Shown here in pieces: positions 1,063 to 22,551 of a DNA stretch of 64,000 bases. Source of the DNA: Pelosinus propionicus DSM 13327 (GTDB lineage Bacteria; Bacillota; Negativicutes; DSM-13327). Under the pieces are notes generated by a model. The model saw only the letters and a list, made by a program, of their open reading frames with translations, did no database searches and was not told where the DNA came from. Position numbers and translations under genes: made by a program. The stretch covers positions 1-64,000 of the forward strand of contig NZ_FOTS01000025.1 of assembly GCF_900114615.1 (NCBI RefSeq), read 5' to 3'. Position 1 is the stretch's first letter. Each line of letters opens with the position of its first letter.

Positions 1063-1107
1063 TGGTGGGGTTAGGCGGACTCGAACCGCAGACCTCTTCG
1101 ATGTCAA
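1063..1107 (-). repeat. tRNA-Val 3' fragment and distal attachment site
   Basis: On the minus strand this reads anticodon loop TTGACAT, the 3' half of the anticodon stem, a T arm with TTCGAGT and the end TAACCCCACCA, and then stops: the D arm and 5' acceptor strand are absent. It matches the intact tRNA-Val(GAC) at 22475-22551 exactly over 17 bp around the anticodon, but differs in the T stem. This suggests that strand exchange happened in the anticodon region and swapped tRNA 3' halves. It is the remote attachment site, shared with the older integrase just to the left. Confidence 0.75.
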
Positions 1108-1287
1108 GGTGAATATTATGTAAATTGTGTATAATTTATGTATAAAAACCATATTAACTTCGTATTAACTAGCCGTCTTAAACTCGGAATAATTCAGATA
1201 AATCAAGCATTTATTATAATTACGTTTAAAAAGCGTTATATTTATATATTATTCATTTTATACAATTATTTAATCCGATTTTTAGGT

Positions 1288-2378: not shown

Positions 2379-4769
2379 TTAGTTTTTATTCTCAAATAAG
2401 TCATTTATTTCATATATGTTTATCCCGCCATTTAAATAGCTTTGCCTAATTACATTCTCTAATAATTTTTTGTCGTCAGTTTCATCTAGTATTTTCTTTA
2501 TTCTTTCATATTCCTTGTTGTTTAAAGTTTGAGAAGTAGTTTTAATTTTTATACCATGATTGTCTTTTATCTCATATTCATTTTTAATAATTTCAATCAT
2601 CTTCTTTATAAACGTCATAATTATTTGTAATTCGTCTCTGATTTCAACTACATCAATTTCATTGACTATGCGTAAATTCATTTGCTGAATGCCATTTACT
2701 ATTGCTTCAAGGTCATCTATTACAAGTTCTTCATATCCTTTAATAACATTTATTTCCTTAAGTAAATTACGATAATGTCTATAACTTACATATCCAAATC
2801 TAAAAAGATAATCTACATACATCTGTAATAAATTATTAAACATTTTATGCGAATTAAAATTTCCAATAACATTTAAAGAATTAATTTTATTTAAAATCCA
2901 AATATATGATTTTTTATCTTTTATAGAAAAATAATTTAACACATAAATTATTTCAATATCAAAATCAGTAGTTTTTTTCATTTTTAAGTAAAGTTCAAAT
3001 AGTGCTGTTCTATTTTTAAAATCTGCATCTATTACCAAGAATGACTTAAACAACTCAACAGCCCAAGGGATTCCCATTAAAAATATAGTTTCATTATCCA
3101 TTTTTTCAAATTTCATATGAAATAACTCATTATAAAATTTGTTAAATGCGGTAATCTGGTCATCAGGTTCTTGGGACAAAACCTCTTGAATCACTTTTTT
3201 TGCCACAAATTCATAATTAGTGTATCTGGATTTACCATTTTCTAAAAGACTCCAAATAATTCTATCTTTTTTATCATTTTCATTTCTACTATTTAACATT
3301 CTTTCTGGTTCCATTAATATTGATGGTATTTTTTCTGAAACATCTTCAATTAAATAGTGTTCGGAATTATAATTTAATAGTTTCAAAATACAATAATTTT
3401 CAATGTTTTGTTCATTCTTAAATAAATTTTCAACTATTTCTTTCTTCATATATATAATCTTAGAAATTGTATATTTTTGAGAATCAACATCAAATTTAAT
3501 TGTATCTATAATAGATTCAGCTACCTCTAACTCTTCATAAATAGCAGAATAAAAATGTTTTATGTAAAAAAAAGTTATCACTGTTTCCTTATTATGGTTA
3601 TATGGCTCATCCATTATTATAAGATTAATTTCATCTATAAAATGTTCAATAACCCTGACACTATAGTACTGTCTTTGAACATTTAAATAAGGTTCTTCAA
3701 TATCAAATTTTCTTTTTATAATATCAAATCGATATTGCTGTTGATAGTTTTGGAGAAATTTAAAATCTTCAAGGTTTAACACTTCTTGATTTATTTTTTT
3801 CTCTTGTAAAATAAACTCTATAAGCTCAAAAAAAGTTATTTTTGTTAAATTAATTTTAAATGGAATGTATTTTTCCAAATATTCATTAGTAAAACCAATA
3901 CATTTAAGTTTATTTTCATCATATTGATATAAGATTTTTATATTATCAGTACAAAGCTTCTCAGATAAATAAAATATCTTTTTAATAACTTTATCATCTG
4001 ATATTCTGTCAATATCCTCATATACTATTAATATTTCTTTATCAATAAGTTTTAACTCTTGTTTAAAGCCTCTAATAGTTTCTGAATATGAATAGTTCCC
4101 ATGAAAAAACAAGCCCAAAACTTTATTTATATTTGAATCTTCAACAATGAAGCTTTTAAGTTTTTTAGAATATTTAGAGACCATTCCATGTTTATACATA
4201 ACTTTTTCTATTTCATTTATTAAAATAAGTAGAATTTCATCAATGTTGCATGCCAGAATATCTATTTCAATTATTTCGTATTGAGTACGAATTTTTTTAT
4301 ATAATTGATTTACTATAAAACTCTTTCCAGTTCCCCATTCTGCATTTATTCCAATAGTATTAAAATTGTTTACATATTGTAAAAGTCTTTCTAAGTCCTT
4401 TTCCCTTTTATAAACTAGATTTTCTTCTATTTCAATATGTTTATCTTTTCTTTGTAACCAGTAACTCCGTATGGAAACAAACAATACTAATAGTAAAAAA
4501 GCTGATATATATATTACTTCAGACAAATTGATAAAAACAATCTCGTTGCTTTTTACTAAAAAGTATGACAGAAAATTACTGATAGTAAGGATGATAAGCA
4601 AATCAAAAACTTCTCTGCTCTTTTTTATTTTAAAATTCAAAAATATAAATCCCCAAATTATTGATAAAAAAATCAAATATTGCATTAAGCTCAATTTTAT
4701 AGCCGAAAAAACGATTAATGATATCAGCATTGTTTTTATAAAGTAATTCAATAAATTTTTTATTCCCAA
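2379..4769 (-). CDS. KAP-family P-loop NTPase with N-terminal membrane segments
   Basis: The predicted product has about 796 residues. The first ~100 contain several hydrophobic helices (for example LISLIVFSAIKLSLMQYLIF), followed by a KAP-type NTPase domain with Walker A AEWGTGKS near residue 150 and Walker B LIVYEDIDRIS near residue 250. The remaining ~450 residues are an alpha-helical, charged region with no motif I recognise. KAP NTPases are membrane-associated ATPases often found in phage-defence islands. The start is taken as TTG 4769, because AAAGGAG lies 8 nt upstream; the GTG at 4778 overlaps that site. The gene is very AT-rich. It is followed by no partner and stands about 130 bp downstream of the HEPN-PIN group on the same strand. 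Confidence 0.75.
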   Translation of the reverse strand: MGIKNLLNYFIKTMLISLIVFSAIKLSLMQYLIFLSIIWGFIFLNFKIKKSREVFDLLIILTISNFLSYFLVKSNEIVFINLSEVIYISAFLLLVLFVSIRSYWLQRKDKHIEIEENLVYKREKDLERLLQYVNNFNTIGINAEWGTGKSFIVNQLYKKIRTQYEIIEIDILACNIDEILLILINEIEKVMYKHGMVSKYSKKLKSFIVEDSNINKVLGLFFHGNYSYSETIRGFKQELKLIDKEILIVYEDIDRISDDKVIKKIFYLSEKLCTDNIKILYQYDENKLKCIGFTNEYLEKYIPFKINLTKITFFELIEFILQEKKINQEVLNLEDFKFLQNYQQQYRFDIIKRKFDIEEPYLNVQRQYYSVRVIEHFIDEINLIIMDEPYNHNKETVITFFYIKHFYSAIYEELEVAESIIDTIKFDVDSQKYTISKIIYMKKEIVENLFKNEQNIENYCILKLLNYNSEHYLIEDVSEKIPSILMEPERMLNSRNENDKKDRIIWSLLENGKSRYTNYEFVAKKVIQEVLSQEPDDQITAFNKFYNELFHMKFEKMDNETIFLMGIPWAVELFKSFLVIDADFKNRTALFELYLKMKKTTDFDIEIIYVLNYFSIKDKKSYIWILNKINSLNVIGNFNSHKMFNNLLQMYVDYLFRFGYVSYRHYRNLLKEINVIKGYEELVIDDLEAIVNGIQQMNLRIVNEIDVVEIRDELQIIMTFIKKMIEIIKNEYEIKDNHGIKIKTTSQTLNNKEYERIKKILDETDDKKLLENVIRQSYLNGGINIYEINDLFENKN

Positions 4770-4908
4770 GCCATACACTCCTTTCTAAACAAAATATGTT
4801 TTTAACTTTATCAGACATATAAGTCTATCAATTTACATTTTATATTAAATATCGAATCACAATGTAAAAAATAGATTTATTTCATGAAATCATCCTTCTA
4901 TCAATTTT

Positions 4909-5338
4909 TCACATTGTACTTAATAGCTTTGCAAATTCATTAAAAATCAAAGTCTGTATTTGCGGCAATTTCAAGAACTTAGGGTCATTACTAACAAAAA
5001 CTTCTATCGAGTTGGCATTTAGAGTCAAGGCTATTAGAGGCAGGACTACTATTTCCTCTGATTTTATCATATAACAATAAATCTTCTGAGGTAGCCCCGT
5101 TTGCGCCATATCCTGCGCCTTCAACATCATAAGAAAAACCCTGTGCAGGAAGGATAGTTGCAAGCTTATGAATTGATAAGCATTCTTCTCGCTTCTCCGC
5201 ATTTTTTATATATTTTAGCTCAGCTTCTTGAATAGCAATACCATAAAGAATAACATTATTTAATCTCATGTGTTTAAGTAAAAGCTCTTTAGTTTTGGAG
5301 TCTAAATATAACGCGTCATAAATATTAGTATCCAGCAT
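4909..5338 (-). pseudogene. PIN-domain protein, frameshifted
   Basis: The first frame (5338 to about 5045) begins MLDTNIYDALYLDSKTKELL, the usual PIN start with the first catalytic Asp, and runs to ATSEDLLLYDKIRGNSSPA. It then loses sense and stops at 4991. The adjacent frame supplies the missing end, LIALTLNANSIEVFVSNDPK, the C-terminal PIN block with a conserved Asp, ending at 4909. A small deletion near 5040-5045 explains both halves. PIN domains are metal-dependent RNases, commonly toxins. The gene sits 18 bp after the membrane protein in an apparent operon and no antitoxin is visible. A sequencing error cannot be excluded. Confidence 0.7.
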
Positions 5339-5356
5339 TATTCTCTATCTCTAAAA

Positions 5357-6583
5357 TCAATAACGAAAATTATTGTACATTATCATTTTGTATTTTTCTA
5401 AAGTATCCCTATTCACAAGTAAAACTACAAGTCTATTCGTTTCGCGAGTTGTCGGTTTCAAAAAAAGAAGATATTTTGCATCAGAAATAGGAAGTTTGTA
5501 AACTCTCCCAGAATGATATTCAATCACCGTATGATGTAAAAAAACATTTATGTAATCTATACTATCCAAATCACGTGTTCTATCGGGAATTACTGAAATT
5601 GTATTTTCAGAAATCTTTATTAATCGCTCATCATAAAATTGCTTAAATATTCCTTGCAAAAAATAATCTTTAGAAATGGGATAATTTATATTTAAGACAC
5701 CTTCTGCTTCCGTAGAAAATATTAGATTTAATGTACTATTAAATGCAGGAAATGTAGCTTTACGACCAAAAATCCAGTCTCTATACCATAGCGTATTAAA
5801 ATAAGATATACTTTGCACAATAAAAATAATTGAAGCTAGAAATATTATTGTTACATATTTACTTACTTTAGCCTTTCGCTTTATCCTCTTCAATTTTAAC
5901 CCCCATCGAAAAGCTCTTCCGAGTAAACACATAAAAGATAAGGATATCAAAAAGAAAGCATAATGCCAATTACTATGCTTATCAGAAAGTATAATAATAA
6001 AAAACACAAAAACCGAGACAGTTACGGCATATTTATTTTTCTCTCCCCAAATTAGTCCTTTGCTTTTAGCCAACTCAAATAATTGACTAAAACTCAATTT
6101 ATAGACACGTACCTTATGTAATAACGCCAAAAACCATTTGATTAGAAAAATAAAATATCCTGGCAATAGTATTAAACCAACATTTGCCATTCTTTTTATA
6201 ATCGGTAACTCCCAATTATTTTTCATTTCAGCAAAGTAATTATATCCGAATATCGTAGTGAATATTAAGTATGATGCAAAAATCGAAAACACAGGATTTT
6301 TCAGTCTTATGGTTTTGTAAATCATATATGGTATAACTACAATGCCAAATGGGATTAAGACCAATATGGTAAAAACAAGTAATGCTACTTTTTGATATGA
6401 GCCAAATAAAGCAATATCAACAATATATTCTCCAAAAGAAAAATCCAACAGCCTTGTATATACTATATAATCATTGAAATATATTAGCACAACAAATAAT
6501 AATAAGTAACCTTTAATTTTACTTATTACAGAAATAAACTCTCCTAAGAATGACCACTCGCTACTTGAATTTATTTTGCTCAT
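5357..6583 (-). CDS. Multi-spanning membrane protein, unknown function
   Basis: 408 residues from ATG 6583 (GGGAG ribosome binding site upstream). I count about seven hydrophobic segments in the first 270 residues (for example YLLLFVVLIYF, VALLVFTILVLIPFGIVVI, YAVTVSVFVFFIIIL, YVTIIFLASIIFIV), then a soluble C-terminal domain of about 130 residues with mixed strands and helices. I recognise no family. It is in the middle of a tightly spaced minus-strand group (HEPN protein, 278-residue protein, this gene, PIN pseudogene; gaps 40, 21 and 18 bp), so it may act as a membrane effector or anchor in that group; this is inference from position only. Confidence 0.6.
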   Translation of the reverse strand: MSKINSSSEWSFLGEFISVISKIKGYLLLFVVLIYFNDYIVYTRLLDFSFGEYIVDIALFGSYQKVALLVFTILVLIPFGIVVIPYMIYKTIRLKNPVFSIFASYLIFTTIFGYNYFAEMKNNWELPIIKRMANVGLILLPGYFIFLIKWFLALLHKVRVYKLSFSQLFELAKSKGLIWGEKNKYAVTVSVFVFFIIILSDKHSNWHYAFFLISLSFMCLLGRAFRWGLKLKRIKRKAKVSKYVTIIFLASIIFIVQSISYFNTLWYRDWIFGRKATFPAFNSTLNLIFSTEAEGVLNINYPISKDYFLQGIFKQFYDERLIKISENTISVIPDRTRDLDSIDYINVFLHHTVIEYHSGRVYKLPISDAKYLLFLKPTTRETNRLVVLLVNRDTLEKYKMIMYNNFRY

Positions 6584-6604
6584 TCGAATTCTCCCACTAT
6601 ATCT

Positions 6605-7441
6605 TTAATCGTCTTTATAATACTTGTCCCAATTATTATAATCCGTCAATTCACAAAATTTAGGGGTTTGCAACTCAACAACTTCTATAATTTCTGATGC
6701 ATCTAAGTTGCGTCTTATATACATTTCAAACACTGATGGCGGTTCTGGATTTTCTATATCACTAGCGATAAGATTAGAAAAAAAACGTTCAGCCAAGCTA
6801 CTACTATAATGTTCAATATCGTTTACAGGTATTGAACATATAAGAATACATGGGGTTCCAAGTTTTTTTAGTGTAAGTGCAATGTTTTTGTCATTTTCAT
6901 GTCCCCAGTACACTCCCTCCCCACCCCAGGAACGAAAAAAGCGATAAATTCCATTAATATCATTTCTCAATAATGAACAATTAGCAAAAAAGCAAATCCG
7001 CTCTGTCCGAACGCCATGTTTGTTATGGAGTATTTCATTAATATCTTGACTATTAATTAGGTAATCAAATTCTTCTTTTAATAGATATCCGTGTTGGTGA
7101 GCCGATATTAATCGTTCTTGAACTAATTCTTTCGATAAAATCTTCATTCCATTTCTTTTTATATTTTCAATTTCATAATCAATCAATTTAGTACAATGAT
7201 AAGCAACGAAATTATTGGGTTTTAATAATTTTTCTGTTTGCCAAATAACCTCCTGATACTCTGCCTTAAAAGGATTTAAAGGAGGATTATATCTTAACTC
7301 AACATTTTTGATAGACCTGAATTCTATATCTTTCTTAAATTTATGATATGCAATAATCAATTGCTTTTTTTGCGTTGCAATCTCTAAGAAATTTCTAGGC
7401 CAAGTGCTCCTATCTTCAATTTCCATTGATAATTTCCTCAC
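6605..7441 (-). CDS. Unknown protein, possible ADP-ribosyltransferase-like fold
   Basis: 278 residues from GTG 7441 (GGTGG upstream), or 273 from ATG 7426, which has GAGG at suitable spacing; the choice is open. It is a soluble protein. The stretch VAYHCTKLIDYEIENIKRNG recalls the H-x-T and following helix of ADP-ribosyltransferase folds, and FRSWGGEGVYWG could be the next core strand, but I cannot identify a full catalytic triad, so this remains a weak suggestion. It lies between the HEPN protein (40 bp upstream) and the membrane protein (21 bp downstream) and is probably co-transcribed with both. Confidence 0.55.
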   Translation of the reverse strand: MRKLSMEIEDRSTWPRNFLEIATQKKQLIIAYHKFKKDIEFRSIKNVELRYNPPLNPFKAEYQEVIWQTEKLLKPNNFVAYHCTKLIDYEIENIKRNGMKILSKELVQERLISAHQHGYLLKEEFDYLINSQDINEILHNKHGVRTERICFFANCSLLRNDINGIYRFFRSWGGEGVYWGHENDKNIALTLKKLGTPCILICSIPVNDIEHYSSSLAERFFSNLIASDIENPEPPSVFEMYIRRNLDASEIIEVVELQTPKFCELTDYNNWDKYYKDD

Positions 7442-7481
7442 ATGTCAACCCACCTAATAATTATCATTAAAAAACAACACG

Positions 7482-8810
7482 TTAATCTTTTTTCTTTTTT
7501 AGTTTTGCTCTCAATCGGTCTGCTTCCTTTTTAATATCTTCTAATGTTTTATATCCTATATCACATAATACAAGACAATTTAACGCCATATATACCGCCA
7601 TTTTTGAGACATGATATAGGTCATTGGGGGTAACTGCTTCATATTCACCCCTATGTACAATTAATGAGCGTTTTTCGTAAAGGTCTTTAATTTGCTTATC
7701 ATAATCTTTAATTTTTCTACTTGAGTCAAGTTTAAAACCGCCATATGTTAAAACTGTAGCAAGTCCATTTTCAACCAACTCAGTGACACCTTTATTATCA
7801 GGAGGATTATATATTAATGCTTCTATCCCTGACCAATATTTAATAAATGTATGAGTTAACGAATAATCATTTTGAGCTTCACCAATCCAATAGATACTTG
7901 TTAAAACCGCTTGTTCAAGTTCTGTGTGTTCGACTTTATTTATAAGAAATATTAACTTTGAAAAAAAATCAGTGTCTTGAAGATTTTCTAGTAGTTTTGG
8001 ATTAACCTCAAAAGGAATTAATATTTTATTTGTAACTTGAAACTGCCAATTTTCATGACCAGCATTATCAATAAAAACTGTATTTTCTTCTGCTATATAT
8101 GCTTCCGCAAGAAAATTAACTTTTAATGAATTGTCGGTTGAACCACCTTTATAAAGTATACAAATTAAAAAGCGAATGATATTTAAAGTTTCTCTTAATT
8201 TCCTAATCGCCTTATTTTTTGCTATATCTTTATCGCCAAAAACTTTACAGCGTATAATTACCTTGTTAAGCAATTGCCTTCGCCTATCAGCTTCGGGTAA
8301 TTTAGCAAAATCAACCTTTAAAAGTTCACTAATATACATTTCATTAGAATTAAATATTTGGACTTCTCCTAACTGAATAGAAACGTCTTCTAGTTTTAGA
8401 CCATCCACTATTCGATAAAATGTATATTCCTCACAGTCAGCAAGGCATTTTTCAACTATAGCTCTTGCATTCTTAGCTGAATGGATTTCTTGTGGCTTTT
8501 CCAATACCTGTGCAATTTCATACCCGATATTTCTTTCTATTGTCCTTTTAGTGATTATATCTGCTATTCCTTTTATAGAATATATATCATCAGCTATTTT
8601 TTCAAATTCGCAAGTAAGCTGTGGTGGCATATATATTATTCTATTGTTGTAATTTAATCCTTGCAACTTGTCCAACTTATCTTTTTCCTCAAAACTCTTA
8701 GGGCTATCAGTTATATATTTTTTTAAGTTAGTTAACTGCATCCAACTAGCTTTAAATCTGCCTAATATTTTCCTAAAATCCTTACCATCCAATATTTGGT
8801 TACTGTTCAC
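7482..8810 (-). CDS. HEPN-domain protein (ApeA-like C-terminus), predicted RNase or defence sensor
   Basis: 442 residues. The C-terminal ~150 residues carry a HEPN signature: THTFIKYWSGIEALIY, then DKQIKDLYEKRSLIVHRGEY with the R-x4-H motif (RSLIVH) that forms the RNase site of HEPN proteins. The N-terminal ~280 residues are of unknown fold and may sense a trigger, as in other large HEPN defence proteins. The start is GTG 8810, because AAGGAGG lies 9 nt upstream; a longer frame from TTG 8831 would place that site inside the gene. It is the first gene of the minus-strand group ending in the PIN pseudogene. Function is inferred from family and neighbours. Confidence 0.7.
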   Translation of the reverse strand: MNSNQILDGKDFRKILGRFKASWMQLTNLKKYITDSPKSFEEKDKLDKLQGLNYNNRIIYMPPQLTCEFEKIADDIYSIKGIADIITKRTIERNIGYEIAQVLEKPQEIHSAKNARAIVEKCLADCEEYTFYRIVDGLKLEDVSIQLGEVQIFNSNEMYISELLKVDFAKLPEADRRRQLLNKVIIRCKVFGDKDIAKNKAIRKLRETLNIIRFLICILYKGGSTDNSLKVNFLAEAYIAEENTVFIDNAGHENWQFQVTNKILIPFEVNPKLLENLQDTDFFSKLIFLINKVEHTELEQAVLTSIYWIGEAQNDYSLTHTFIKYWSGIEALIYNPPDNKGVTELVENGLATVLTYGGFKLDSSRKIKDYDKQIKDLYEKRSLIVHRGEYEAVTPNDLYHVSKMAVYMALNCLVLCDIGYKTLEDIKKEADRLRAKLKKKKD

Positions 8811-9068
8811 AAACAAATTCCTCCTTCCCAAAATCTCCTAATTATAATAATAACATTAAATAATAAAGAAAAAAGCAATAAATTTAGATTACTGCTACAA
8901 TTTGACGCTCTAGGCTTTTATAAGCGTCTATTTCAGCATGGGAATACATATTTTTACCCCACTATTTGCTCATAACTTACTGCATACGAAGAAAGTTCCA
9001 AAAACGAGAGTATTTTATAGCAAATAAGTTATAATCTAAAAATATATTTGAAAATAGCTTAAAATAAC

Positions 9069-9097
9069 TTGAAATGGCTAAATTGTCCTGATACAAT
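9069..9097 (+). promoter_or_regulatory. Predicted sigmaA-type promoter
   Basis: TTGAAA (9069-9074) and TACAAT (9092-9097) with a 17-bp spacer. Transcription would start near 9104, just before the folded leader at 9132 and the plus-strand gene series. The rest of 8811-9131 is AT-rich and I see nothing else in it. Confidence 0.55.
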
Positions 9098-9131: not shown

Positions 9132-9234
9132 GAATGGTTTTTTCTCTATCCTCCATCAGGAGGTAGAAGTGTACCGACCGCTCCCCAAAAGGGAAAGGTC
9201 TACCACTTCACAGAGAAACAAGCCATTCTTTTTT
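9132..9234 (+). ncRNA. Folded leader RNA ending in a terminator-like stem
   Basis: The ends pair (GAATGG 9132-9137 with CCATTC 9223-9228; TTTCTCT with AGAGAAA), enclosing two more hairpins: CCTCC/GGAGG around ATCA, and GAAGTG...CACTTC with ACC/GGT and CCC/GGG inside. The outer stem is followed by a run of six T (9229-9234). It lies between the promoter at 9069 and the HTH gene at 9270, so it may be a small RNA or a transcription attenuator of the module. I do not recognise the class. Confidence 0.5.
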
Positions 9235-9269: not shown

Positions 9270-9443
9270 ATGGATAAAAAATTTTATAACCTCTACGAAG
9301 CCGCCGCGCTCTTAGGCATTGGCTACAGCACTTTACGCCTCCATATCCAAGAAGGCCGAATCCCGTTCATTATAATAGGCAAACGAAAGTTTGTTACCTC
9401 CACGACTATCCAGCAAATTGAAAACTCCGCCTCTGCCCGATGA
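9270..9443 (+). CDS. Excisionase-like helix-turn-helix protein
   Basis: 57 residues from ATG 9270, with GGAAAGGAAC upstream. NLYEAAALLGIGYSTLRLHI is a MerR/excisionase-type winged helix-turn-helix, followed by IPFIIIGKRKFVTSTTIQQ, the usual wing and end of small excisionase-family proteins. Such proteins bend attachment-site DNA during excision or act as regulators. It is the first gene of the plus-strand module and its stop codon TGA (9441-9443) forms part of the core of the first hammerhead-like motif. Confidence 0.7.
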   Translation: MDKKFYNLYEAAALLGIGYSTLRLHIQEGRIPFIIIGKRKFVTSTTIQQIENSASAR

Positions 9444-9502
9444 TGACCAATTTGGCCATTGGTCGAAACGGTCTCACATAGTTGAGACTATCGCGAAAGG
9501 CC
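9429..9502 (+). ncRNA. Hammerhead-like ribozyme motif, copy 1
   Basis: Core CCGATGA (9437-9443), stem II GACCAAT/ATTGGTC (9445-9451/9458-9464), GAAA (9465-9468), stem III GTCTCA/TGAGAC (9471-9476/9483-9488), then TATC (9489-9492) as predicted cleavage site and GCG starting stem I. Stem I is the weakest of the three copies: TGC/GCG, an internal loop, then GCC/GGC. Departures from the consensus are C in place of U4, one extra U after A9, and a C-A mismatch at the base of stem III. The stop codon of the HTH gene supplies positions 7-9 of the core. Confidence 0.5.
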
Positions 9503-9532
9503 ACAAATAACATCCAACAGGAGTGATTTACT

Positions 9533-9907
9533 ATGTATCAACCCCGCATACAAACCCTTTGCGGAACCCCAGAAGAATTGCTGGAAAAGTTAACAAGCAT
9601 GGCTTTGGCAAGCTACCAATCCACAAAAGTTCTCATCAATTATGATAAAGAAACTGATACCGAAGTTGAAATTGATGTGCTTTTCGACAAAGCCTTAGTC
9701 ACTGAATCATGCGAGGATTGGCTGACTGACCAGGGTCATGACAGCGAAGAATGGGATGACGATGGAGTAACCGCTTTTCTCGATGAGTATTATCCTAACC
9801 AATATGATGAAATAGCCTGGGAAGTTGCTGAGTTTTACGTTAGAGAGCAACTAGAGGAAATAAATTTAAAAGTAGAAAACCTCGAATCCATTTCAGTTTT
9901 CTATTAG
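9533..9907 (+). CDS. Acidic protein of unknown function
   Basis: 124 residues from ATG 9533 (CAGGAG upstream). Strongly acidic in the middle (ESCEDWLTDQGHDSEEWDDD) and at the C-terminus, soluble and without signal peptide. Acidity and small size recall DNA-mimic anti-restriction or element-maintenance proteins, but there is no family evidence. It is flanked on both sides by hammerhead-like motifs, so its mRNA segment may be released from the neighbours by cleavage. Confidence 0.6.
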   Translation: MYQPRIQTLCGTPEELLEKLTSMALASYQSTKVLINYDKETDTEVEIDVLFDKALVTESCEDWLTDQGHDSEEWDDDGVTAFLDEYYPNQYDEIAWEVAEFYVREQLEEINLKVENLESISVFY

Positions 9908-9908
9908 C

Positions 9909-9979
9909 TCCGCCCGATGATGGCACGGTTGGCTACCTGTCGAAACAGCCTCCACTGCGGGGCTGTCGCGGAAAGCCGC
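9909..9979 (+). ncRNA. Hammerhead-like ribozyme motif, copy 2
   Basis: Stem I TCCGC (9909-9913) pairs with GCGGA (9968-9972). Core CCGATGA (9914-9920), one extra T, stem II GGCA(c)GG/CC-TGTC (9922-9928/9936-9941), GAAA (9942-9945), stem III ACAGCC/GGCTGT (9945-9950/9961-9966), and C 9967 as predicted cleavage position. After cleavage the new 5' end could form the hairpin GCGG-AAAG-CCGC (9968-9979) ahead of the next ribosome binding site. The core departs from the consensus by C in place of U4. Confidence 0.6.
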
Positions 9980-10010
9980 AAAAAATAATATTTTAAGGAG
10001 TTGGTCTTTA

Positions 10011-10463
10011 GTGAAGAACTTAGCTAAGAAACTCACGAAAAATCATTTAAACGCTTTGAAAACTGAGGTAAAACGAGCACAATCGGAATATCTAACGACT
10101 AACATATCAGATAGGTTTTCGATTCATGTTGTAGTGAACGATAGCCTAGAGATTTTTACAGACTACAACAACATACAATCTGACAATCAAATTTGCATAC
10201 ACATTTGCAGTAGAGGAGCAGAAGCGGACTGGCGGCATTTCGCGCAGGAAAAGGGCGACTTAGACAGTTTCTTAAGGCGTAATATGATTGTGCTAGGAAA
10301 TGAGAGCTTTACAGAACGTCTTAATCTGTTAGAGCAGCAATTCTCATTAACCTTTACTGAATACAAACAAAAGACGCTTGACTGGATAATGACACGATTT
10401 TGGCCTACTCAAGAACTAATAAATAGTGCAATCGCTAGATATCAAGAAAATTTTTCCGCCTGA
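10011..10463 (+). CDS. Unknown element-encoded protein
   Basis: 150 residues from GTG 10011 with AAGGAG about 10 nt upstream. The N-terminus is basic (MKNLAKKLTKNHLNALKTEVKR); the centre has predicted strands (FSIHVVVNDSLEIFTDY, NQICIHICSRG), and the C-terminus is helical. No motif or family recognised. It stands between hammerhead-like copies 2 and 3, and its stop codon TGA (10461-10463) forms positions 4-6 of the copy 3 core, so translation and ribozyme folding would compete at this point. Confidence 0.6.
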   Translation: MKNLAKKLTKNHLNALKTEVKRAQSEYLTTNISDRFSIHVVVNDSLEIFTDYNNIQSDNQICIHICSRGAEADWRHFAQEKGDLDSFLRRNMIVLGNESFTERLNLLEQQFSLTFTEYKQKTLDWIMTRFWPTQELINSAIARYQENFSA

Positions 10464-10525
10464 CGATTGGCATGGTTGGTGACCTGCCGAAACAGTCCCC
10501 ATACGGGGCTGTCGCGGAAAACCGC
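10452..10525 (+). ncRNA. Hammerhead-like ribozyme motif, copy 3 (most canonical)
   Basis: Stem I TTTTCCGC (10452-10459) pairs perfectly with GCGGAAAA (10514-10521). Core CTGACGA (10460-10466) fits the hammerhead CUGANGA consensus; stem II GGCA/TGCC plus GG/CC (10469-10475/10483-10488); GAAA (10489-10492); stem III ACAG(t)CCCC/GGGGCTGT (10492-10500/10505-10512); C 10513 is the predicted cleavage site (GTC). Two T (10467-10468) sit unpaired between the core and stem II. GCGG can instead pair with CCGC (10522-10525) after cleavage. It precedes the replication protein gene by 20 nt. Confidence 0.7.
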
Positions 10526-10545
10526 AATAAAAGGAGTATTTAATT

Positions 10546-11625
10546 ATGAATAAGAACAACAATTTATTAACAGCTATTTCCCTTATCCGCAGCGACAACT
10601 TTATCCTAATAAACCGCGATTTAATTCACGCAATAGGGCTTGAAGAAACTACGATTTTTTCAGAGCTTTGCTCAAAATATGCTTACTACTTGCAACAAGA
10701 TAAGTTAGAGGAAGATGGTAGTTTCTATTGCACGGTCGACACGCTTGAAATTATGACATCTATCACAGAAAAACGCCAACGCAAAGCCCTGAACCGCCTT
10801 CAAGAGCTAGGAATCCTACAAATTCTTTTAAAAGGAATACCACATAAAAGATTCATTCTACTTGATGAAAACCTACTTAACATTATTGCGGTATTAATTA
10901 AACAGGGCACAGAAAACCAAAGAATTCTTAAAGACAATTTGACTCAAAAAGCAAAGCTTAAAGCGCAAGCTACAGAGCGGGCACGACAGGAAAAATCACA
11001 GTTCCGACAAAATAGCGGAATTAGTTCCATCGAAACAGAGGAACTTGTTCTGTCAAAACGGCGGACAATTAATAATAATAGTATTAGTAATAAGATAAAT
11101 AATAATAAATCCCTTATTGGGGTTACTGCCCCGAATCAGTATGCAACTTTTCTTGAAAAAGAAGATGTTGAGACTGTTATAGCAGAAGATACTATTTCAA
11201 GCCCAGATAACAATAGTAGCAAGAATACTCCTTCTTCCCCAAAAGTGAAAAAACTTATTACCTATACTAATGAGGGGTTTATTACCTTTTGGGATAACTA
11301 CCCCAGAAAGGTTGATAAAGCAAAAGCCTATAAAGCATATTTAATACTTCTTGCATCTGGATATACCGAAATACAATTAAATACAGCCTGTAAAGATTAT
11401 GCTACAGAGTGCAGTGTTTCCAGAAAAGCTGAAAAATATATTAAGTACCCTTCATCTTTTCTCGAAGTAGAATATTTGGGTAAATACCTTAATCCTACTA
11501 CTTCTTCAAATTCTACTACAGCAACAGCTACACTTTCATTTGAGGAAAGGTTGAATGCAGCTACGTCAAAACGGCAATCTTCATCAAACAGAACATGTCT
11601 CGGTTGGGATAATTTTGACTGCTAA
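10546..11625 (+). CDS. Replication initiation-type protein (winged helix N-terminus, DnaT/phage O-like C-terminus)
   Basis: 359 residues, AAGGAG upstream of ATG 10546. Residues ~15-115 form a winged-helix region (TIFSELCSKYAYYLQ, FYCTVDTLEIMTSITEKRQR, KALNRLQELGILQI) as found in plasmid and phage replication proteins. Residues ~125-235 are a low-complexity linker rich in Asn, Ser and Lys. Residues ~240-325 contain FITFWDNYPRKVDKAKAYKA and a following helical region, the FWxxYPRK domain of DnaT-like and phage replication proteins that binds single-stranded DNA. The gene probably serves autonomous replication of the excised element. It is separated from the upstream gene by hammerhead-like copy 3. 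Confidence 0.65.
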   Translation: MNKNNNLLTAISLIRSDNFILINRDLIHAIGLEETTIFSELCSKYAYYLQQDKLEEDGSFYCTVDTLEIMTSITEKRQRKALNRLQELGILQILLKGIPHKRFILLDENLLNIIAVLIKQGTENQRILKDNLTQKAKLKAQATERARQEKSQFRQNSGISSIETEELVLSKRRTINNNSISNKINNNKSLIGVTAPNQYATFLEKEDVETVIAEDTISSPDNNSSKNTPSSPKVKKLITYTNEGFITFWDNYPRKVDKAKAYKAYLILLASGYTEIQLNTACKDYATECSVSRKAEKYIKYPSSFLEVEYLGKYLNPTTSSNSTTATATLSFEERLNAATSKRQSSSNRTCLGWDNFDC

Positions 11626-11923: not shown

Positions 11924-12048
11924 GATGCCTATAAAGGCATCACAACCTTTGTTTAAGTAAAAGAATGGGTTCCTAACAATTTAAAAGGCTTCTGCCTGAT
12001 TCAGTGCACAGTCAGGTAGAAGCGCAAAGGCGTTTCTCCTGACTTTTT
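11924..12048 (+). promoter_or_regulatory. Attenuator-like leader before the RadC-like gene
   Basis: After a perfect hairpin GATGCCT/AGGCATC (11924-11941) come three segments that can pair in two exclusive ways. GCTTCTGCCTGA (11988-11999) pairs with TCAGGTAGAAGC (12012-12023); the latter also begins a strong terminator, GTCAGG-t-AGAAGCG with CGTTTCTCCTGAC (12011-12043), followed by TTTTT. This is the layout of an antiterminator/terminator switch. The signal is unknown; an antisense RNA as in plasmid rep control is possible. Bases 11757-11923 show nothing further. Confidence 0.55.
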
Positions 12049-16828: not shown

Positions 16829-17686
16829 TTATTTTCCTATGTCATTGATGGAAAAACCAATGTTTTTCTTGCAAACAATACGTAGCTTGTGCGGATTTTT
16901 TATTTTATGAGAACTTAATTTATACGACAAAATCATCATGTCAACTAAATCTTGCTGTGAAAAAGATGCTCCCGCTCCACCATCAAATGACGTTGTTCCT
17001 GCGCCTAATACTGGTACGCATACATCATTTTCAGAATAGTTATTCTCTAATTCCTTCCACAACCAATCCAAACACTCAAGATACTCGTCACGAGAAAAGA
17101 ATCGCCCTTTACCTTTTTCATCTAATTTTGCAAACGCCATCAATAAGTCATCGCCATTTGGTACTATGGTTCCTGAATCATACCGTGTTTTACGCAGATA
17201 TTTTGATTTGCTTTGGGCTGGTATAATTTGCGCAGAACTGATTAACTGTTGGACATCTAAATCTGGATGCAATTTTAAATACTGGCCGCATATGGAACCT
17301 GGATTTATATCTGGCGTTGCGTTACCTACTTGTGTTGTAAAACACTCATCAAAATTGATTACTCGCTTGCATTTCCTCTTTTCGAGAATATCTCCATACT
17401 CTACAATAATCGAATAATTTTGACCTTTGATTGTAATACTACTGCGAAATTTCAAAAAAGCCATATATAGAAACGATGTTACAACACAAACAAGCAAAAA
17501 GCACATAAGACGAGAAATTATAATATTAACATCTTGAGCATCTAAACGCGCAAACCATTCACATTGTTCAAGAGTCTCTTTCGTTATCCATTCATATTTT
17601 CCAAAGAATGCCTCTGGCACAAAGGTAAATATACCTGTGACGGTAGCAAATGCTAGAGTTACCCTCTTTACGACGAAATCAATCAA
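16829..17686 (-). CDS. TM-macro effector, type II Thoeris ThsA-like
   Basis: 285 residues from TTG 17686. Two hydrophobic helices (LAFATVTGIFTFVPEAFF near residues 9-27 and IISRLMCFLLVCVVTSFLYM near 57-76) precede a cytosolic macro-type domain, in which DDLLMAFAKLDEKGKGRFF, VCVPVLGAGTTSFDGGAGAS and KLRIVCKKNIGFSIND are the core blocks. In type II Thoeris such a TM-macro protein senses a histidine-ADP-ribose signal made by the TIR partner and disrupts the membrane. The start TTG overlaps the TIR stop codon (TTGA), so translation is coupled. The family is recalled from published Thoeris descriptions; no search was run. Confidence 0.7.
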   Translation of the reverse strand: MIDFVVKRVTLAFATVTGIFTFVPEAFFGKYEWITKETLEQCEWFARLDAQDVNIIISRLMCFLLVCVVTSFLYMAFLKFRSSITIKGQNYSIIVEYGDILEKRKCKRVINFDECFTTQVGNATPDINPGSICGQYLKLHPDLDVQQLISSAQIIPAQSKSKYLRKTRYDSGTIVPNGDDLLMAFAKLDEKGKGRFFSRDEYLECLDWLWKELENNYSENDVCVPVLGAGTTSFDGGAGASFSQQDLVDMMILSYKLSSHKIKNPHKLRIVCKKNIGFSINDIGK

Positions 17687-18291
17687 AATCCAAGTACCTC
17701 TTTTATGTATGAATAGTCTCCAACTTTCTTCCCATTAGAATCGATTTTCCAGAATGGTTTCGCATCATTTTCGTAACATTTCATATATGTGGGAAGCCAA
17801 TTTGATTCATTACGTGTAGAATTATATACGATAATGATTGTTTTTTTCTTCTTTTGGGACTGTTCAAATTCATGACGAAGGTAAGAACACTTATTTATGT
17901 TTCCGTAATCGTCATTCTCGCTAGGCGTGGAAACACTGAAAACTGTACACGCTTTAGCGCCGTTGGTATTTTGCTTATATGGTGTACAAGTACACTCCCA
18001 TTGTTCTTTAGAAATACGTTCGCATCCGCTTCCTGCTGTTCGAGAAGCAGTCATATCGCCCACAATAAAAATCGCTGCCGACGAAGCGTTAATTTGGCGA
18101 TTAAATTCGGCTTTCAAATCACAAATTCGGCAATCATCGCTATTAGCCACACTGCCAGACGACACCTTCGACATATCAATAAAATCGACTTTATGGAGAT
18201 TATCCATTCCCCATTTATTCAATTCCTCTACTACATTTTTATCACCATTTAGCTGGTCATAGTCCGCGCTGATGTAAACTTGCTTACTCAT
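17683..18291 (-). CDS. TIR-domain signal synthase, Thoeris ThsB-like
   Basis: 202 residues from ATG 18291 (AAAGGAG about 10 nt upstream; a GTG at 18300 touches that site). It begins MSKQVYISADYDQLNGDKN, the first TIR strand; DLKAEFNRQINASSAAIFIV is a central helix-strand pair; YLRHEFEQSQKKKKTIIIVY holds a Glu in the usual place of the catalytic residue. TIR enzymes of Thoeris systems cut NAD+ on infection and make a cyclic or conjugated ADP-ribose signal for the effector encoded beside them. It is translationally coupled to the TM-macro gene, and both lie in the inverted-repeat cassette. Confidence 0.7.
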   Translation of the reverse strand: MSKQVYISADYDQLNGDKNVVEELNKWGMDNLHKVDFIDMSKVSSGSVANSDDCRICDLKAEFNRQINASSAAIFIVGDMTASRTAGSGCERISKEQWECTCTPYKQNTNGAKACTVFSVSTPSENDDYGNINKCSYLRHEFEQSQKKKKTIIIVYNSTRNESNWLPTYMKCYENDAKPFWKIDSNGKKVGDYSYIKEVLGF

Positions 18292-18371
18292 GCAAATCAC
18301 GCTCCTTTGGGGATAATTTTAATATTTCAAACTATACAAGGTCGTTAATAACAACTGTAACATTTTAGTAT

Positions 18372-21071: not shown

Positions 21072-22364
21072 ATGGCTAAGAAGAAAAAGGAAAACACACG
21101 AGGCGAACGTGGTTTAGGCACAGTTATCAAAAAGGACAACGGAATTTTTGAAACGCAGGTTACAGTCGGTTATGACCCTATCAGCAAAAAGCGTATTCGA
21201 GAAACATTTTCTTCTTCCGACAAAGAGGAAGTAAAAAACAAGCGGCTAGAATTTTTACAGCGACGTAATCGATTTAACGGGATTTATGATAAAGATATTA
21301 CACTTAGCGAATGGATTATGGAATGGCTAGAAGATATAAAATCCATATCTCTCGCCAAGACAACTTATGCAAAATACAATACGCTTATTAAAACACATAT
21401 TATCCCCCGCTTAGGTAGCTTCCCTCTAAGAGATATCACGCAAAAACACATCCAGCAATTTATAAATACCATCTATAAAGAAGGCACCCCAAGGAAGCGG
21501 GGGGAAATTTCAATTAAGGGTACACCATTATCTCCAGCTACTGTTGTAGAGTGTCATAGCATATTGTTTGCTTCTTTAGATTTAGCTACAACCCCCGACA
21601 AAGGGCTACTAGAATACAATCCTTGTTCCCATACCGAACTGCCAAAAATCAAACGTCGAGAACGGGATATATTTCAGGATGAAGATATTTGCTTAGTACT
21701 GCAAGAGGCAAGAAAAGCCGATATCGCGGCGGAAGAAAGGTATAAAAATTTTAAGAAAGAGGAAATTTGTTGCTGGCATTTAGCAATCCGCTTACTGTTT
21801 GAAACAGGGTTAAGACGCGGCGAACTCTTAGGATTAAGGTGGAAAGATGTAGACCTACTTACAAGCAATGTTAAAATACAGCAATCCTACGTTTCTTTAA
21901 ACGGGCAGGGAATACCAAGCCAATTGAAAACAAAAAGTTCCTACCGTGGTCTACCTACACAAGTGAGCACAACACAGGAATTAAAGCTTTGGAAAGAAAA
22001 ACAATGGCAAATAAAACTACGTAATAAAACTCTTTACAAAGACCAAGGGTATATATTTACCAATCATATAGGTTTACCAATCGACCCTAATTGGTTTTCT
22101 ACGAAGCTAAAAAAATTACAAGCGAGATTAGGAATTAAAGAATTGTCCCCACATTGTACGCGGCACACAGTAGCCACAAAATTATTACAACAAGGTGTTC
22201 CTATTTCGGATGTACAGGCTTGGGGTGGTTGGGGTTCTCCACGTGTTTTGTTGGAACATTATTCTCACGCTTTACCTTCCAATAAGAACAAAGTACTAAG
22301 CATTTTAGGCGACCTTACAAAAGAAAATGAGCCTTCTGCAAATACAGAAAGCCCAAATCACTAA
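21072..22364 (+). CDS. int: Tyrosine integrase of the element
   Basis: 430 residues, full length for Tn916/phage-type integrases; GGAAGGTG upstream of ATG 21072. An N-terminal arm-binding domain (GLGTVIKKDNGIFETQVTVG, residues ~14-70), a core-binding SAM-like domain (LSEWIMEWLEDIKSISLAKT, ~78-180) and a catalytic domain with TGLRRGELLGLRWKD (Arg ~246), SPHCTRHTVATKLL (HxxR), GGWGSPRVLLEHYSHA (Trp/His and the Tyr nucleophile near 397). All active-site residues are present. The gene ends 110 bp before the tRNA-Val attachment site, with arm-like repeats in between, so it is the recombinase of the element spanning 1091-22519. Confidence 0.95.
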   Translation: MAKKKKENTRGERGLGTVIKKDNGIFETQVTVGYDPISKKRIRETFSSSDKEEVKNKRLEFLQRRNRFNGIYDKDITLSEWIMEWLEDIKSISLAKTTYAKYNTLIKTHIIPRLGSFPLRDITQKHIQQFINTIYKEGTPRKRGEISIKGTPLSPATVVECHSILFASLDLATTPDKGLLEYNPCSHTELPKIKRRERDIFQDEDICLVLQEARKADIAAEERYKNFKKEEICCWHLAIRLLFETGLRRGELLGLRWKDVDLLTSNVKIQQSYVSLNGQGIPSQLKTKSSYRGLPTQVSTTQELKLWKEKQWQIKLRNKTLYKDQGYIFTNHIGLPIDPNWFSTKLKKLQARLGIKELSPHCTRHTVATKLLQQGVPISDVQAWGGWGSPRVLLEHYSHALPSNKNKVLSILGDLTKENEPSANTESPNH

Positions 22365-22474: not shown

Positions 22475-22551
22475 TGGTGGGGTTAAAGGAACTCGAATCC
22501 CTGACCTCTTCGATGTCAACGAAGCGCTCTAACCAACTGAGCTATAACCCC
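22475..22551 (-). tRNA. tRNA-Val(GAC)
   Basis: Minus-strand cloverleaf: acceptor GGGGTTA/TAACCCC, D arm AGCTCAGTTGGTTAGAGC, anticodon stem CTTCG/CGAAG with loop TTGACAT (anticodon GAC), T loop TTCGAGT, encoded CCA. It is the integration target: bases 22503-22519 are the attachment core. The 3' half was probably supplied by the element and still restores a complete tRNA. Confidence 0.95.

Follow-up and report, generated by a model that had tools for sequence, protein, structure and literature searches.

The 64,000-nucleotide stretch of Pelosinus propionicus DSM 13327 DNA analysed here (the window) contains a plus-strand operon of four consecutive genes. The first (9270 to 9443) encodes a 57-aa HTH_17 protein that is excisionase-like, the second (9533 to 9907) and third (10011 to 10463) encode proteins of 124 and 150 aa with no family match, and the fourth (10546 to 11625) encodes a 359-aa replication initiation protein that matches phrog_270 (6e-14) and Lactobacillus phage replication proteins. 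Three copies of a hammerhead ribozyme motif are placed exactly between these four genes of an integrated mobile element. The full order of features is a promoter-like site, a structured leader, the HTH_17 gene, copy 1, gene 2, copy 2, gene 3, copy 3, the replication initiator gene and a terminator-like hairpin. The promoter-like site (9069 to 9097, plus strand; TTGAAA, a 17-nucleotide spacer, TACAAT and an extended −10) is a weak candidate from a consensus scan that counted 15 such sites versus 11.4 in shuffled sequences, which is not above shuffles. The hairpin (12018 to 12037, plus strand), likewise of a type whose count is not above shuffles, could be the transcript end of the ribozyme operon.

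The leader (9132 to 9229, plus strand) folds as a very stable three-way-junction RNA (−46 kcal/mol, z of −7.5 relative to shuffles). It is present as a single copy, has no match in Rfam and is absent from 20 related genomes. It may be a further RNA with a function in regulation or processing, or it may represent an origin of replication or transfer. The 17-bp direct repeat GACCTCTTCGATGTCAA occurs at 1091 to 1107 and at 22503 to 22519, and its second copy lies within a tRNA gene (22478 to 22551, minus strand) adjoining an integrase gene (21072 to 22364). These repeats likely served as attachment sites when a 21.4-kb element integrated. The element also carries a Thoeris-like pair (16829 to 18300, minus strand), in which the ThsA macro-domain protein is matched at 2e-42 and the TIR-like ThsB falls just under the cut-off. 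Four minus-strand genes (2379 to 8831; 799, 408, 278 and 449 aa), divergent from the ribozyme operon and lacking a Pfam match, are cargo without assigned function.

Structurally, the motif copies (copy 1, 9429 to 9510; copy 2, 9906 to 9985; copy 3, 10452 to 10531; all plus strand) each comprise a core, a stem II hairpin, GAAA, a stem III hairpin, UC, and a GCG(G) strand that pairs with the 5ˊ side. An initial annotation of this DNA had reported three such motifs between consecutive genes, which direct reading confirmed, with identical predicted cleavage sites after C9492, C9967 and C10513. Both reading and model alignment find the type I order in all three copies, namely an open stem I, C3 to A9, a closed stem II, G12 A13 A14, a closed stem III, H17 and the return strand of stem I. 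The GAAA sequence (9465 to 9468 in copy 1 and 10489 to 10492 in copy 3), the A15.1-U16.1 pair and C17 are common to all copies. As previously described, copy 3 has the textbook CUGANGA core (CTGACGA, 10460 to 10466) and a stem I formed by 10452 to 10459 and 10514 to 10521. Copies 1 and 2 carry C4 (CCGATGA at 9437 to 9443 and 9914 to 9920). A G-C pair closes stem II in every copy, but it follows A9 only after one extra nucleotide in copies 1 and 2 and after two (U) in copy 3. In copy 1, stem I is broken or weak and a C-A mismatch occurs in stem III beside the cleavage-site pair. A MAFFT alignment of the three copies has 78% mean column identity. With the pseudoknot described below outside the folding model, the minimum free energy fold is the three-way junction for copy 3, and other structures for copies 1 and 2.

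The motif is also interwoven with the coding regions. As the initial annotation had noted, the stop codons of two upstream genes are built into the core: the TGA of gene 1 (9441 to 9443) supplies U7-G8-A9 of copy 1, and that of gene 3 (10461 to 10463) supplies U4-G5-A6 of copy 3. The TAG of gene 2 (9905 to 9907) sits at the edge of copy 2, ahead of the core. In all three copies, loop II (UUGGYNA) pairs with the nucleotides directly 3ˊ of stem I to form a pseudoknot (9453 to 9457 with 9499 to 9503 in copy 1, 9930 to 9934 with 9974 to 9978 in copy 2, and 10477 to 10480 with 10521 to 10524 in copy 3). Its successive pairs in copies 1, 2 and 3 are U-A, U-G and U-G; G-C in each; G-C in each; C-G, C-G and U-A; and C-G, U-A and a mismatch, which include compensatory changes. 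The CCGC strand 3ˊ of stem I, which had been assigned to a hairpin that refolds after cleavage, is thus mainly one side of this pseudoknot in every copy, an interaction missed previously. In copy 1, the pseudoknot can form and the product hairpin cannot.

The genome was searched with R3, a covariance model derived from 23 textbook relatives (CUGANGA, no insertion, G10.1-C11.1) and free of window sequence. When it was run against the whole 5.4-Mb genome, the three window copies were the only matches at E≤1, with scores of 42.5 bits for copy 3 (E of 4e-7), 38.3 bits for copy 2 (E of 5e-6) and 19.9 bits for copy 1 (E of 0.30). Given this search, the three copies are not chance occurrences, and copy 1 on its own is below significance. 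The R3 matches, together with the covarying stems described below, bear out the type I layout originally proposed. The Rfam hammerhead models, a search also suggested at that stage, gave no match above gathering for any window copy. RF00163 (Hammerhead_1) had no match to the window copies at E≤10. The top plus-strand match in a 91-base search with copy 3 was RF03152 (RAGATH-1-hammerhead) at 16 bits and E of 1, far below its gathering threshold of 56.3; this model aligns the core correctly and leaves its first 24 positions unmatched. Apart from RAGATH-1-hammerhead, lax thresholds around the copies gave chance matches alone and no plausible ribozyme. In four relatives (L036, L143, L106 and L023), Hammerhead_1 is the top Rfam match at the motif, with 20 to 27 bits relative to a gathering threshold of 34.

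Because a protein-based search yielded no close relatives of the operon proteins, including that of gene 2, relatives were sought by the RNA and DNA pattern of the motif. The patterns derive from the window copies, and conservation of the core among the relatives is therefore partly built in. A strict pattern found 16 stretches in viral contigs, about 10 of them real; another pattern, and one with stems I and III unconstrained, each found at least 120. Genome contigs gave at least 118 matches from Clostridia, Paenibacillus, cyanobacteria and others, and some of these that have long gaps are likely due to chance. A fixed-length consensus pattern was rejected as a search tool since it returned chance matches alone. 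After a pairing filter was applied to all loci, at least 324 distinct copies were obtained. Within the host genus, family and order, motif copies were not found outside the element. Among 398 genomes sampled from the phylum, 18, including that of the window, had a match at E≤0.001.

Evidence for the fold comes from an alignment of 150 relatives taken from the matches listed. The top pairs in an all-against-all analysis of column covariation belong to stems I, II and III and to a pair between loop II and the tail (37-113), which among these matches is CG in 83 cases, UA in 33, GC in 6 and AU in 4. Changes on both sides of a pair occur in 624 cells versus 213 in shuffles, and the covariation score is 0.380 versus 0.109 in shuffles and at most 0.054 for slid structures, again for relatives among the matches listed. 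Covariation in stems I to III leans on the alignment model, which lacks the pseudoknot, and that of the pseudoknot is independent of it. Consistent with this pairing, at least four Watson-Crick pairs between loop II and the tail are possible in 63% of relatives among the matches listed versus 24% after tail exchange. The earlier observation that the stems keep their pairing while their sequences differ is upheld in independent relatives. Covariation in homologous elements, whose absence had been named as grounds for doubting the motif, is present in all three stems and in the pseudoknot.

The pattern of base conservation is that of a hammerhead core. Among the matches listed, C3, G5, A6, G8, A9, A13, A14 and A15.1 are invariant in the 150 aligned relatives and N7 varies. 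No variation occurs at these eight positions, and position 7 is unconstrained, in 25 aligned copies that the scan pattern does not match. In that alignment, A15.1-U16.1 is present in 149 of the 150 relatives among the matches listed, position 17 is C in 148 and A in 2, and 146 have a C-G pair beside A15.1-U16.1 that copy 1 lacks. The 3ˊ strand of stem I is GCGG in 250 of 324 copies among the matches listed, a bias that is partly derived from the pattern. Of these same 324, 27 carry C4, and about three quarters have one or two extra nucleotides, usually U, between A9 and stem II or as a bulge right after its first pair. Because both features are common in the family, they are best viewed as tolerated variants rather than decay, and they are no sign that the window copies are dead. 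The initial suggestion of a variant class therefore holds in a mild sense, in that C4 and the nucleotides inserted after A9 recur across the family.

Relatives share the genomic context of the window copies. For 136 relatives with sufficient flanking sequence among the matches listed, 129 have an upstream stop codon between −150 and +30 of the core, and in 92 it lies within about 15 nucleotides; the peak of stop codons at +4 arises partly because CUGA contains UGA. A downstream start codon with a ribosome-binding site is present in 112 of the 136, at a median of 28 nucleotides past the motif. Adjacent copies are on one strand in 121 of 122 pairs among the matches listed, with a median spacing of 728 nucleotides. 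The placement between consecutive operon genes that was first noted in the window is therefore shared by independent relatives.

Several of these characteristics have precedents. Hammerheads that flank single genes or small blocks of genes in prophages were described by Perreault et al. in 2011, who proposed that long transcripts are cut into single-gene mRNAs (PMC3088659). Cleavage in vitro has been observed for prophage hammerheads in tandem, and those of Agrobacterium also cleave in E. coli; a pseudoknot between stems I and II is found in about 40% of hammerheads and in all three types (PMC3088659). Bacterial hammerheads are enriched in the vicinity of Mu-like phage genes and of one another, and known alignments allow one or two inserted nucleotides (PMC10085705). 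Clustered prophage hammerheads, pseudoknots and the U4C change have thus been known since 2011, and the window copies are new members with a recurrent core variant missed by Rfam. They have in common with the prophage clusters of Perreault et al. the flanking of genes, the pseudoknot and the proposed cutting into single-gene messages. They differ in being a tight series, all of type I, within a 21-kb element integrated at a tRNA gene, where three genes are each followed by a ribozyme. Two copies also have C4, and one or two nucleotides are inserted after A9. Relative to Hammerhead_1, which has the same 5ˊ to 3ˊ order (stem I, CUGANGA, stem II, GAAA, stem III, UH, stem I), stems II and III are longer in the window copies, which also contain a 3ˊ pseudoknot strand and the inserted nucleotides. 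RF02276 (Hammerhead_II) has the same core and a pseudoknot; however, it is circularly permuted, with stem II open rather than stem I.

Taken together, the three motifs are very probably type I hammerhead self-cleaving ribozymes of a bacterial and phage lineage, apparently cutting the operon RNA into single-gene mRNAs. As the nascent RNA of the operon (9270 to 11625) emerges, stems I, II and III would form in each copy, and loop II would pair with the four to five nucleotides directly 3ˊ of stem I to bring stems I and II side by side. Pseudoknots align these two stems in other fast natural hammerheads. Self-cleavage would then occur co-transcriptionally after C17 (9492, 9967 and 10513). Each upstream message would end beyond its stop codon with stem III as a 3ˊ hairpin and a 2ˊ,3ˊ-cyclic phosphate, and each downstream message would begin with a 5ˊ-OH approximately 33 to 44 nucleotides ahead of its start codon, leaving the ribosome-binding site free. 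Judging from their context, the copies would thereby convert a single transcript into four single-gene mRNAs, possibly with altered stability or expression ratios. Copy 3 is predicted to have the highest activity and copy 2 is probably active, and the activity of copy 1 is doubtful and may be weak given its stem III mismatch, broken stem I and C4.

These same departures could instead indicate degenerate hammerheads, in which the fold is inherited and C4 (copies 1 and 2), extra U nucleotides (two in copy 3) and weak stems (copy 1, with its mismatch and weak stem I) have made some or all window copies inactive. The U4C change reportedly causes a considerable loss of activity in vitro, yet it is tolerated in a viroid, where it supports infectivity (PMC3088659). 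Moreover, relatives among the matches listed that carry C4 (27 of 324) or extra nucleotides (about three quarters) keep the other core bases and covarying stems, and copies 2 and 3 have an intact pseudoknot and stems, which makes degeneration unlikely. Far less probable still is a structured signal between genes without ribozyme activity, for instance an RNase III processing site or a protein-binding element. Processing sites can be intergenic hairpins, and Rfam offers no match above gathering, but a signal of this kind would have no need for hammerhead core bases, and the unpaired bases that are invariant among the matches listed are precisely those of the core, with position 7 free and position 17 restricted to C or A.

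An addition to the ribozyme interpretation, rather than an alternative to it, is that the stem I strand refolds with CCGC after cleavage to form a 5ˊ hairpin that blocks religation and protects the downstream message. Copies 2 and 3 could form this hairpin (GCGG-AAAR-CCGC). A complement of at least four nucleotides is present in 60% of all relatives among the matches listed versus 45% after tail exchange, and in 30% versus 16% of those with other stem I sequences. In L128 (GTAGC-GTCTC-GCTAC), L276 (ATGGG..CCCAT), L049, L076 and certain other relatives, a second sequence able to pair with the 3ˊ strand of stem I lies a short way downstream, which would give a hairpin at the 5ˊ end created by cleavage. 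However, the enrichment over the permutation control is modest, the strand is also used by the pseudoknot, and the hairpin is absent from copy 1 and from most relatives with other stem I sequences among the matches listed. A universal post-cleavage hairpin is thus rejected, and what persists of the original proposal is a hairpin that copies 2 and 3 could form and for which relatives show enrichment; its role as a switch is rather doubtful.

The hammerhead interpretation can be extended, tentatively, to the family as a whole. It is conceivable that a widespread bacterial and phage type I subfamily outside Rfam, with extra nucleotides after A9, C4 allowed and a pseudoknot between loop II and the 3ˊ tail, punctuates whole operons gene by gene, with a ribozyme placed directly behind every stop codon and ahead of the next ribosome-binding site. 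For some family members, the cut strand might refold as the 5ˊ hairpin, making the cut irreversible and protecting the new 5ˊ-OH. Regarding the role of bacterial hammerheads, the window operon provides a small, testable system for asking whether mRNA stability and protein ratios are determined by cleavage, as it offers three natural variants of graded quality (a U4 core, C4, and C4 with weak stems) in one operon ending in a replication initiator. Standard RNA models miss this common bacterial type I form, which has matches in 18 of the 398 phylum genomes sampled, and counts of hammerheads in phages and mobile elements are therefore probably well too low.

The largest series among the matches listed, in L091, has nine copies in 6.4 kb that mostly alternate with single small genes. 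Known ribozymes on contigs that carry relatives also favour the hammerhead interpretation: on phage contig L009, a bona fide Hammerhead_II lies alongside a relative of the motif. Another phage contig (L035) is a region of mixed ribozyme classes, in which two twister-sister ribozymes (556 to 626 and 1081 to 1152, minus strand) adjoin a type I hammerhead relative.
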